Source: Brevibacillus laterosporus DSM 25 (GTDB lineage Bacteria; Bacillota; Bacilli; Brevibacillales; Brevibacillaceae). Taken from it: a stretch of 64,000 bases of DNA. The notes beneath the pieces are model-generated. The model searched no databases. It was given only the letters and a program-made list of their open reading frames with translations, and was not told the origin of the DNA. Where the stretch lies: assembly GCF_002706795.1 (NCBI RefSeq), contig NZ_CP017705.1:2823001-2887000 (forward strand), in the 5' to 3' direction. Position numbers and translations under genes: made by a program. Shown piece after piece: positions 52,528 through 54,461 of this stretch (its first letter is position 1; every line of letters begins with the position of its first letter).

Positions 52528-53640
52528 ATGACAAGAAAAAAACAACCAACTATTTATACACTGCCCGATGAATTTCAAGCGTTTGATTTTGCTCAAGATC
52601 TCTTGTATTGGTATGATGCCCAAAAGCGAGATTTACCATGGCGAATAAATCGAGACCCTTATCGTGTCTGGGTTTCAGAAATTATGCTACAACAGACACG
52701 TGTAGAAACCGTGAAACCCTACTATCAAAATTTTATGCAAAAATTCCCTACAGTGGAAGCGCTGGCTGCCGCTCCTGAGGAACAGGTTCTAAAAGCATGG
52801 GAAGGACTAGGTTATTATTCCCGAGCACGTAACTTACAAGCCGCAGCTCGTGAGGTTACAGTTTCGTATGGTGGAGTGGTTCCTGACACACCTGAAGAAA
52901 TTTCTAAGCTAAAGGGTGTAGGCCCATATACAGCCGGTGCCATTTTAAGTATAGCTTATGAAGTTCCTGTACCAGCGGTGGACGGTAATGTAATGCGTGT
53001 GTTTTCCAGACTTTTACTGATGGATGATGATATTGCTAAACCAGCTACACGGACCAAAATGGAACAGCTAGTTAAACAAACAATTCCAATCGGACGAGCG
53101 GGTGACTTTAACCAAGCGATTATGGAATTAGGGGCACTTGTTTGTCTGCCTAAAAATCCGCAATGCCTTACCTGTCCCGTCTTTGATTACTGTTTAGCTC
53201 GAAAAGAAGGCGTGCAGGATACATTGCCCGTCAAAGGGAAGGCAAAGCCACCGCGTCCCGTTCAATTACTAACAGCGGTAGTAAAACGTGACTCCCAATT
53301 CCTTATTCAAAAGCGTCCTGAACAGGGATTATTAGCAGGATTATGGGAATTTCCTATGATAGAGCATGCGGGGACAAAGGATGACGAGGAACAATTGCTA
53401 CGTTTCTTGGAAAAAGAGTATGGACTAGAGGTAGATTTGGGAGATTATCTGATGAATGTACAACATACCTTCTCACATTTGCATTGGAATGTAGATGTGT
53501 ATGTAATGGAGCACATTTCAGGTGAGCCGCTAAAAGAGAATGCTGTGTTTGTTACCTCAGAGGAAATGGCACAATATGCATTCCCCGTATTACACAATAA
53601 GATCATTGCCGAAATATTAGCGAAGGAAGAAAATTGTTAA
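52528..53640 (+). CDS. mutY: A/G-specific adenine glycosylase MutY
   Basis: 370 aa, ATG 52528. Base-excision repair: removes A mispaired with 8-oxoG. HhH-GPD domain with catalytic Glu in VSEIMLQQTRVETV (about residue 52), HhH LKGVGPYTAGAILSIAY and catalytic Asp in VPAVDGNVMRVFSR (about 152). [4Fe-4S] cysteines CLPKNPQCLTCPVFDYC (C-X6-C-X2-C-X5-C). A C-terminal NUDIX-like 8-oxoG domain (about 245-365) completes it. Normal length. Confidence 0.96.
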   Translation: MTRKKQPTIYTLPDEFQAFDFAQDLLYWYDAQKRDLPWRINRDPYRVWVSEIMLQQTRVETVKPYYQNFMQKFPTVEALAAAPEEQVLKAWEGLGYYSRARNLQAAAREVTVSYGGVVPDTPEEISKLKGVGPYTAGAILSIAYEVPVPAVDGNVMRVFSRLLLMDDDIAKPATRTKMEQLVKQTIPIGRAGDFNQAIMELGALVCLPKNPQCLTCPVFDYCLARKEGVQDTLPVKGKAKPPRPVQLLTAVVKRDSQFLIQKRPEQGLLAGLWEFPMIEHAGTKDDEEQLLRFLEKEYGLEVDLGDYLMNVQHTFSHLHWNVDVYVMEHISGEPLKENAVFVTSEEMAQYAFPVLHNKIIAEILAKEENC

Positions 53641-53691: not shown

Positions 53692-53853
53692 TTAGAATCG
53701 ATTCATTAAATAATGGTGCTCAATACATCGTTGTTGGTTTTCTTCACGGATTTTTTCAATACGTTTATGTTGGATATAATCTCGGTATGTTTTCTCCGGT
53801 GATTTCTTTTTACGTTCAATAATAATGGTAAAAAAGATCATTGGAATATGCAC
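53692..53853 (-). CDS. YrzI-family small protein (copy 1)
   Basis: 53 aa from GTG 53853 with AAAGGAGG 9 bases upstream; an in-frame ATG three codons earlier overlaps the RBS. Reads MHIPMIFFTIIIERKKKSPE, then KTYRDYIQHKRIEKIREENQ. A short hydrophobic N-terminal stretch with FFTI followed by Lys/Glu-rich helix is the hallmark of the YrzI family, small proteins of unknown (sporulation-associated) function. Last gene of a four-ORF leftward unit. Confidence 0.75.
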   Translation of the reverse strand: MHIPMIFFTIIIERKKKSPEKTYRDYIQHKRIEKIREENQQRCIEHHYLMNRF

Positions 53854-53888
53854 AGTGCACATCCTCCTTTTATTTTTTGTTCATCCAG

Positions 53889-53954
53889 TCAGGTCCCATC
53901 TAGCGCCTTTACACCTACATACTTCATACGTTGTTTACGTTTAACATTTCTCAT
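53889..53954 (-). CDS. Very small basic ORF (21 aa)
   Basis: ATG 53954 with GGGAGGA 9 bases upstream encodes MRNVKRKQRMKYVGVKALDG plus one residue. Highly basic. It lies between two YrzI-like genes in the same direction with regular spacing, which supports translation. No family known; could be a remnant or regulatory peptide. Confidence 0.5.
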   Translation of the reverse strand: MRNVKRKQRMKYVGVKALDGT

Positions 53955-53986
53955 CTCAACATTCCTCCCATTCAAAGTAAGAATAC

Positions 53987-54139
53987 TTACATAATATACG
54001 GCGTTTGGGCGTCTAACATGTACCGTTTTTCATCGCGTTCTTTAATCCATTGTTCCTGGAAGTAAAGTTCTGTTTGCCTTTCAACAGGCGGCTTGTTGCG
54101 TTTAATCTGAACAGAAAACATAAAAAAATGAAATACCAT
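53987..54139 (-). CDS. YrzI-family small protein (copy 2)
   Basis: 50 aa, ATG 54139 with AAAGGGGGTG upstream. Reads MVFHFFMFSVQIKRNKPPVE, then RQTELYFQEQWIKERDEKRY. Same design as copy 1 (hydrophobic FF.F..., then I-K/E-R-x-K, then amphipathic charged helix). Located 43 bases downstream of the intrinsic terminator of the leader, so its expression probably depends on read-through. Confidence 0.75.
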   Translation of the reverse strand: MVFHFFMFSVQIKRNKPPVERQTELYFQEQWIKERDEKRYMLDAQTPYIM

Positions 54140-54185
54140 GACTTGTGTCACCCCCTTTCAATTTCTATGAAAAAAGAACATAAAA

Positions 54186-54252
54186 AGACCGTAAGATATG
54201 GGTATCTCACGGTCTGAGCGTGTAAAAGTAAATATGCACCGCAAGAGATACC
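54186..54252 (-). terminator. Leader terminator with competing antiterminator
   Basis: Minus-strand stem AGACCGTGAGATA / TATCTTACGGTCT (13 bp, CCCA loop, 54215-54186) followed by TTTTTA. Upstream, GGTATCTC (54252-54245) is perfectly complementary to GAGATACC (54208-54201), which covers half of the terminator 5-prime arm. The two structures exclude each other, the layout of a transcription attenuator. Confidence 0.65.
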
Positions 54253-54287
54253 TCTCCTACGATCTACTTATCAGGCATAAAGAATGG

Positions 54288-54392
54288 CTAAACAACCATC
54301 ACCTGTCTGGAAGCGAGGAGAGAAGATGTTATGAAATTATGCATAGCACTATTGTTGCCAACTAATTGTGTAAAGATTCCCATAAACATCAT
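54288..54392 (-). CDS. Small leader ORF of the YrzI cluster (34 aa)
   Basis: ATG 54392 (second ATG at 54389) with AAAGGAGG 8-9 bases upstream. Begins MMFMGIFTQLVGNNSAMHNF and ends LLASRQVMVV. The RBS is strong and the ORF is 25-30 bases behind a promoter. Its stop is 36 bases before the antiterminator segment. It may be a functional small protein, a leader peptide, or both. No family recognised. Confidence 0.6.
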   Translation of the reverse strand: MMFMGIFTQLVGNNSAMHNFITSSLLASRQVMVV

Positions 54393-54432
54393 TTTCTGAA
54401 CCTCCTTTCCATATGACTGGTATTATTCCTTA

Positions 54433-54461
54433 ATAGTATGGCATTATTTTCAATTTGTAAA
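54433..54461 (-). promoter_or_regulatory. Promoter of the small-gene cluster
   Basis: On the minus strand -35 TTTACA (54461-54456), 17-base spacer, -10 TACTAT (54438-54433); first small ORF begins about 41 bases after the -10. Confidence 0.65.

Follow-up and report, generated by a model that had tools for sequence, protein, structure and literature searches.

A predicted ribosome-mediated attenuator precedes the genes of YrzI-like small proteins in Brevibacillus laterosporus and its relatives

The bmrBCD operon of Bacillus subtilis is induced by ribosome-targeting antibiotics and needs translation of its leader (PMC4191407). It combines a short translated leader with a predicted anti-antiterminator, antiterminator and terminator, but all three are contained within the 53 codons of bmrB, no definite role was given to the anti-antiterminator in the passages on these structures, and the cargo is an ABC exporter (PMC4191407). 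In vmlR of the same species, a ribosome stalled on an upstream ORF (uORF) prevents the anti-antiterminator, and the antiterminator blocks an intrinsic terminator; this uORF has three codons and lies within the anti-antiterminator, the Shine-Dalgarno (SD) sequence is single-stranded, the response is drug-selective and the cargo is a resistance gene (PMC9226507). A leader peptide, an intrinsic terminator and an SD-sequestering structure decided by the stalled ribosome were reported for B. subtilis tlrB (yxjB), where the peptide is of the tylosin-specific RXR type, the SD is mainly that of the resistance gene and, in the parts of the report that deal with the leader, no overlapping antiterminator was identified (PMC6851288). 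In Escherichia coli toiL-topAI, a uORF senses several translation stresses through stalls at various positions (PMC12121999). The B. subtilis yrzI operon (S1024, S1025, S1026 and yrzI) shares the YrzI family with the locus described here.

We analysed a stretch of 64,000 nucleotides of the B. laterosporus DSM 25 genome (NZ_CP017705.1, positions 2,823,001 to 2,887,000), which we call the window; the genome itself (G000) has 5.4 Mb. Between the convergent mutY (52528-53640) and the divergent fabL (54676 on), gene names being those of the initial annotation, the minus strand carries a leader ORF of 34 codons (54392-54288), the YrzI-like protein A of 50 amino acids (54139-53987) and a 21-amino-acid peptide gene, ORF3 (53954-53889), followed by the YrzI-like protein B of 53 amino acids with a GTG start (53853-53692). 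The initial annotation had described four such ORFs of 34, 50, 21 and 53 codons, each with an SD, and all were found as claimed. The single promoter and single terminator that it gave them were recovered as well. The promoter-like pair is of the sigma-A type (TTTACA-17-TACTAT, 54461-54433, minus strand, motif scan). The end terminator hairpin of the cluster (53670-53646, minus strand) stands before mutY; the scan listed it on the plus strand only, and the surrounding 61 nt fold at -17.5 kcal/mol (z -3.0). In the stretch scanned, terminator-like sites numbered 4 against 1.6 expected and promoter-like sites 9 against 5.9 expected. TTTACA-17-TAnnnT also stands upstream of the leaders in G003, G016, G033, G017, L075 and L078, in a promoter scan that was permissive, with some match in 44 of 45 loci, none in G006 and other hexamers in G002 and G007.

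The leader RNA holds a chain of five competing helices, SD:Z, Z:1, 1:2, 2:3 and 3:4, with all segments on the minus strand. The leader SD AAAGGAGG (54408-54401) is a partner of segment Z (54323-54308), which lies inside the last codons of the leader ORF and pairs with the SD stretch. A part of Z, CTCTCCT (54322-54316), pairs with AGGAGAG (54258-54252) of segment 1 (54263-54253), the 5' arm of the anti-antiterminator. Segment 2 (54252-54238) provides the 3' arm of 1:2 with 54248-54238, and its GGTATCTC (54252-54245) together with GCGG (54242-54239) can pair with segment 3. Segment 3 (54215-54201; antiterminator partner 54212-54201) is the 5' arm of the 13-bp leader terminator (54215-54186, terminator scan), and segment 4 (54198-54186) is its 3' arm, followed by a T run. 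No second copy of this terminator was present in the window's own genome with up to 3 mismatches.

The 8-base complementarity between GGTATCTC and GAGATACC (54208-54201), which opposes the 13-bp terminator, is as the initial annotation had it. The terminator and its competitor 2:3 had thus been seen, while the rest of the anatomy had been missed: the 1:2 stem of up to 11 pairs (54263-54253 with 54248-54238), which begins 24 nt past the leader stop, and the pairings by which codons of the leader engage both its own SD and the 1:2 stem. At least two helices, 1:2 and SD:Z, are thus added here, with Z:1 as the switch. For the leader RNA (54426-54180) the folding energy is -73.2 kcal/mol (z -4.0, 0 of 200 shuffles as good). 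The minimum-energy fold contains a hairpin between part of the SD and later codons of the leader, a small one that spans the leader stop, the 1:2 hairpin and the terminator. GAGG (54404-54401) is predicted to pair with CCUC (54318-54315) and UGGAA (54411-54407) with UUCCA (54312-54308), so that in the window's predicted fold the leader SD is only partly paired. A TTG-started frame of 28 codons (54244-54158, minus strand) begins within segment 2, and AGGAGAGG of segment 1, which precedes it by about 6 nt, could serve as its SD; the frame is also open in G003 and G004 and may be due to chance.

We consider it about 75% probable that this RNA is a ribosome-mediated transcription attenuator which switches on the YrzI operon in response to ribosomes stalled in the early part of the leader ORF. 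With no translation, the leader SD would pair with Z, segment 1 with segment 2, and 3:4 would terminate transcription. Under normal translation, the ribosome would reach the end of the leader and cover Z; 1:2 would re-form and 3:4 would again terminate. When the ribosome stalls or slows within about the first 20 of the 34 codons, the SD would be covered and Z free to take segment 1, which would release segment 2 for pairing with segment 3, and the polymerase would read through into YrzI-A, the 21-amino-acid peptide and YrzI-B. The ORF3 message would then be cut by Rae1, ending the response. Leader termination would be expected to occur in vivo, and the natural signal would be stalling caused by drugs or poor tRNA supply. 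The locus has the translatable leader ORF upstream of an intrinsic terminator that defines the class, translation of the leader being predicted. Judged by anatomy and prediction, the device would work like the ribosome-mediated attenuators of bmrBCD and vmlR with a leader-SD element added. Unlike those of bmrBCD, the YrzI hairpins lie past the leader stop. Z, a partner of the leader SD as well, would tie them to the position of the ribosome.

The locus was compared in 39 genomes of the Brevibacillaceae, in all of which a MutY search led to the same place, and at loci from other families of the class. The leader ORF is present in 39 of 39 family genomes (36 from ORF lists; G005, G008 and G014 by eye) and is followed by two hairpins in 38, G001 having one. 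For this count, the hairpins were set by script in 32 genomes (one in G011 was replaced by hand), by hand in G010, G015 and G024, and by eye in G005, G008 and G014. ORF3 was likewise found in 39 of 39, ORF A in 37 (36 by script and G008 by eye; absent in G005 and G014) and ORF B in 38, being absent, by pattern, in G006. Thus the conservation that the initial annotation had made its test holds for the ORFs, while the peptide sequence of the leader is not conserved.

Outside the family we followed the YrzI family PF09501, which was found in 16 of the 121 genomes of the class sample (5 of the 16 being family members) and in 119 of the 249 genomes of the order sample, where the 29 newly returned loci were examined. 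In many families of the class, clusters of related genes appear to be preceded by similar switches; no leader was seen in L077, L098 and L121, and L082 is without one hairpin. YrzI genes are often in tandem, with up to five PF09501 matches in one genome (G378), and L101, L119 and L120 have one leader and then two YrzI genes. A conserved ORF of 73-75 amino acids (start M[YF][IV]GRE[FL]SEL) stands upstream of the leader in L037, L039, L040, L054 and L070 (G006, G007, G013, G033 and G014); for the window, the ORF list has no such frame from the leader to fabL. In thirteen relatives the distance of ORF B from mutY exceeds that in the window by over 400 bases (L038, L047, L049, L056, L057, L061-L065 and L067-L069, that is, G009, G061, G008, G010, G024, G029, G031, G020, G026, G022, G018, G028 and G023), so that something stands between the two genes there.

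Complementarity within loci was measured with a swap test, which compares duplex energies of cognate and non-cognate segments over 20000 permutations. For the first sample, the leader was set by reading in 47 loci (36 of the family and 11 others), and the 45 with two hairpins were used, giving 21 non-redundant representatives in which G003 stands for the window's group. The hairpins of G010, G011, G015 and G024 had been set by hand beforehand; the rows dropped were G001 and L082, which did not have both hairpins, L077, where a leader was missing, the weak match L091, and L089, which is the same locus as G009. Cognate duplexes were stronger on average for SD:leader (-17.7 vs -13.7 kcal/mol, z -6.4), Z:1 (-16.6 vs -13.0 kcal/mol, z -5.7) and 2:3 (-17.5 vs -12.2 kcal/mol, z -7.3), each with 0 of 20000 permutations as extreme, and the controls SD:1 and Z:3 both gave z -0.5. 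In single loci, the cognate partner ranked first in 7, 6 and 6 of the 21, respectively. The second sample, taken from the order sample and passed by an automatic filter on ORF and hairpins only, kept 23 of 29 loci and 11 representatives. SD:leader gave z -4.1 (1 of 20000), Z:1 z -4.4 and 2:3 z -4.6 (both 0 of 20000), and the controls SD:1 z -2.6 (208 of 20000) and Z:3 0.0. The loci that failed the filter were L098, L108, L115, L116, L117 and L121, with a leader ORF visible in L108, L115 and L117.

The Z:1 pairing is clade-specific, being CTCTCCT/AGGAGAG in the window's group, CAGCGCA/TGCGCTG in G006 and GCACCT/AGGTGC in G007. Native leaders paired better than their synonymous recodings in most loci: for the pairing with the SD, 17 of 21 loci of the first sample and 10 of 11 of the second had z below -1, and for Z:1 17 of 21 and 8 of 11 did. 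Covariation was counted on an alignment of 29 of 35 family sequences, from which G006 and G011 (long spacer), G004 (near copy) and G023, G024 and G062 (identical stretches) were left out. Two-sided changes were found in 12 of 23 pairs of 1:2 and 3:4 together, against 3.6 in shuffles, and in 4 of 11 pairs of 2:3, against 1.4 (8 of 500 shuffles as high). These counts are lowered since part of the hairpin of G000, G003 and G002 sits two columns off, and versions of the alignment slid by 1 to 3 columns paired far worse. By swap test and covariation, the antiterminator and the anti-antiterminator are mutually exclusive and conserved. Both alternative stems of the initial annotation are therefore kept with two-sided changes, and the conserved helices support its view of the first ORF as a leader with attenuator-like RNA ahead of YrzI-like genes.

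The same two hairpins could be tandem terminators without regulation, serving as insurance against readthrough, their likeness making 2 and 3 complementary by accident. The 1:2 hairpin often has a T run of its own, and the arms of 1:2 and 3:4 look alike. However, this would leave SD:Z and Z:1 unexplained, the cognate 2:3 duplexes are stronger than the swapped ones, and the promoter, the leader ORF and the genes just downstream favour regulation. We regard it as very unlikely.

To model the effect of ribosome position, the RNA downstream of the ribosome was folded with the polymerase at the loop of 3:4, a fixed footprint and no kinetics. For the window (G000), the probability of 2:3 was 0.14 with no ribosome; with the P site at codons 1-19 it was 1.0, and it fell to 0.8 at codon 20 and to 0.1-0.2 beyond. 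In its close relative G003, high values were confined to about codons 12-19. Of 68 loci, 35 had at least one stall site within the first 70% of the leader at which the value exceeded that without a ribosome by more than 0.3. Over 32 representatives, median predicted antitermination rose from 0.25 in the absence of a ribosome to 0.90-0.99 when one stood at 10-50% of the leader, and was 0.11-0.17 at 70-90%, whereas 96 controls with swapped leaders were nearly flat, with medians of 0.14-0.29 (Mann-Whitney p 4e-8). The early-minus-late gain averaged 0.38 and exceeded 0.3 in 15 of 32, against 0.05 and 10 of 96 for swapped leaders; for early minus none, 12 of 32 representatives and 11 of 96 controls exceeded 0.3. 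A switch that depends on ribosome position is thus predicted in about half of the representatives. The other 17 of 32 representatives had no early-minus-late gain above 0.3. G015, L080, L087, L103 and L105 were predicted to be antiterminated at every ribosome position and G007, L102 and L106 at nearly every one, and L081 partly runs the wrong way. These cases count against the attenuator reading, as do the narrow codon range of G003, the SD:1 control of the second sample, the loci that lack a leader or one hairpin, and the partly paired SD of the window.

We had also considered that Z:1 might displace 1:2 ahead of the synthesis of segment 3, but the equilibrium calculation did not bear this out: with segment 3 still absent, 1:2 rarely gave way to Z:1 (drop of more than 0.3 in 2 of 33). 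Since 1:2 nearly always wins at this earlier polymerase position, Z:1 would have to arise while segment 2 is yet to be transcribed, or else 2:3 would have to hold it. In terms of the model, the switch must act as Z:1 plus 2:3 jointly, or kinetically.

To see how the leader is constrained, we counted pairwise differences at codon positions 1/2/3, skipping pairs of unequal length (8 of 36 and 28 of 36 leader pairs in the two larger groups; 14 of 36 pairs for A and 8 of 36 for B in the third group). In nine close genomes (the g7 group), A gave 30/34/172, ORF3 gave 0/0/36 and B gave 40/16/174, against 98/55/55 in the leader. In G000, G003 and G004 they were 5/5/6, 6/2/29 and 4/0/18 for the leader, A and B, and in a third, more diverse group 68/73/69, 187/73/491 and 209/179/621. 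Thus A and B show third-position bias and the leader shows none in the three groups; ORF3 has none in the third group either (62/91/84). The leader peptide is unconstrained by this measure, and no conservation of it beyond clades was found. It seems, from these sequence comparisons, that the leader is kept as something translated and not for its peptide. Two classes of leader peptide, NFIRQRIL and SASWTDEL, were dropped as candidates; both motifs encode the segment complementary to the SD stretch. There is no run of one amino acid in the leaders by eye, apart from Met runs at the start. With no single-residue run and no peptide conserved beyond clades, slow or stalled translation in general is therefore the likeliest signal.

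These observations weigh on two other kinds of leader. A drug-specific one, in which a given nascent peptide stalls with a given antibiotic as in the ErmC or MsrD leaders, would fit a 34-codon leader with a strong SD whose start, MMFMGIF, resembles what we take to be the N-terminus of the ErmC leader. We hold it unlikely: the leader peptides vary between clades without third-position bias, the recurrent motifs SASW, RQRIL and HST/YST coincide with RNA complementary to the SD stretch, and the readthrough predicted for G000 is equal for any stall in codons 1-19 (not so for G002 and G003). A leader that senses an amino acid, or that binds a metabolite or a protein, would share the overall architecture of trp- or his-type leaders. 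It has the smallest probability that we assign to any reading, given the absence by eye of a single-residue run other than the Met starts, a leader ORF in all 39 family genomes, and the lack of any relevant hit when the window stretch and 8 related loci were scanned with Rfam. In the window stretch, searched with E up to 1, Rfam returned two weak matches, MS2 and bxd_1, well below gathering scores; the 8 related loci gave no match at gathering.

The cargo resembles YrzI, as the initial annotation had it, but A (14.5 bits) and B (15.7 bits) of the window fall below the cut-off of 23 of PF09501, and the window proteins reach 10.5 and 14.7 bits in TIGR02413 against a cut-off of 47.05. Because they are under the curated cut-offs, we call them YrzI-like. 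PF09501 matches at the coordinates of ORF B in G001, G010 and G015 score 24.1, 24.0 and 23.0 bits and reach the Pfam cut-off. The AlphaFold2 model of YrzI-B (21 sequences; mean pLDDT 76.8, pTM 0.41) shows a hydrophobic start to which no structure is assigned and, after it, a single long helix (19-52). A proposed link with sporulation found no support beyond the name of the Pfam family, and the evidence points to translation stress.

Behind YrzI-A in the window, ORF3 has 21 codons and ends in VKALDGT. A peptide of 17 to 19 codons stands behind yrzI in L074, L104, L108 and L079 and ends in EKDQV, with the codons GAG AAG; the ending around K and D that it has in common with ORF3 is a loose pattern by eye. 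The cut site of Rae1 in S1025 is, as we take it, GAG/AAG. By its position, ORF3 may be the counterpart of S1025, that is, the target ORF of Rae1, whose family (PF05991) is found in 39 of 39 family genomes. L104 and L108 lie between a formate/nitrite transporter gene and a methyltransferase gene, and yrhG presumably codes for a formate/nitrite transporter. In B. subtilis, yrhG adjoins yrzI (PMC3574147). From this neighbourhood, L104 and L108 are probably yrzI orthologues; in them the ORF behind yrzI has 17 codons with GAG AAG near its end, and they have one YrzI where most Brevibacillaceae have two.

S1024, S1025, S1026, yrzI, bmrC, bmrD and bglC were picked as Rae1 candidates in B. subtilis (PMC10632193), and S1025 has been called the first characterised Rae1 substrate (PMC11780869). 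It could be, then, that the switch is real and that Rae1 cutting within ORF3 mainly sets the level of the operon, the attenuator mattering little. S1024-S1026 and yrzI rise in a B. subtilis Rae1 mutant (PMC10632193), and the presence of the Rae1 family in every family genome would agree with this. Such cutting is nevertheless compatible with an attenuator, the conserved helices suggest a fitness effect, and we find a minor role of the attenuator improbable.

The attenuator reading can be set beside published transcript data. In B. subtilis, yrzI and bmrCD mRNAs are reported to rise when tRNA maturation fails on depletion of RNase P or Z, for which the authors discuss ribosome stalling and mRNA stability, not readthrough, in the passages concerned (PMC10100781). 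The yrzI of B. licheniformis has a 5' untranslated region of 301 nt (PMC3871023), and an Hfq-associated small RNA of 234 nt, ncr60/ncr2184, lies between yrzI and yrhG in B. subtilis (PMC3574147). By a rough count, the spacing from promoter to terminators in L104 and L108 is about 200-260 nt, close to these 234 nt. No yrzI attenuator was found among the matches listed from the open-licence literature, a prior description elsewhere being possible, and none is mentioned in the yrzI passages of PMC10100781, PMC10632193, PMC3498285, PMC3574147 and PMC3871023.

Taken further, and tentatively, since we put its chances clearly below even, YrzI operons may form a translation-stress pulse circuit of Bacilli, which the six-segment attenuator would turn on and Rae1, acting at an S1025-like ORF, would turn off, with YrzI acting on stalled translation. 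The attenuator would then be an AND-gate on ribosome position, responding to a leader begun but unfinished, and the leader-SD element would make absent and healthy translation both read as off.

The predicted ribosome-mediated attenuator gives a candidate regulator and a candidate signal for a widespread small-protein family whose Pfam label is only 'probable sporulation protein', and it describes a layout in which the leader's own ribosome-binding site would be part of the switch. It offers a reading of ncr60/ncr2184 (PMC3574147) as terminated leader RNA. If the two RNA targets reported for Rae1 are taken as yrzI and bmrCD (PMC10632193), it may also suggest why both would be switched by stalling.
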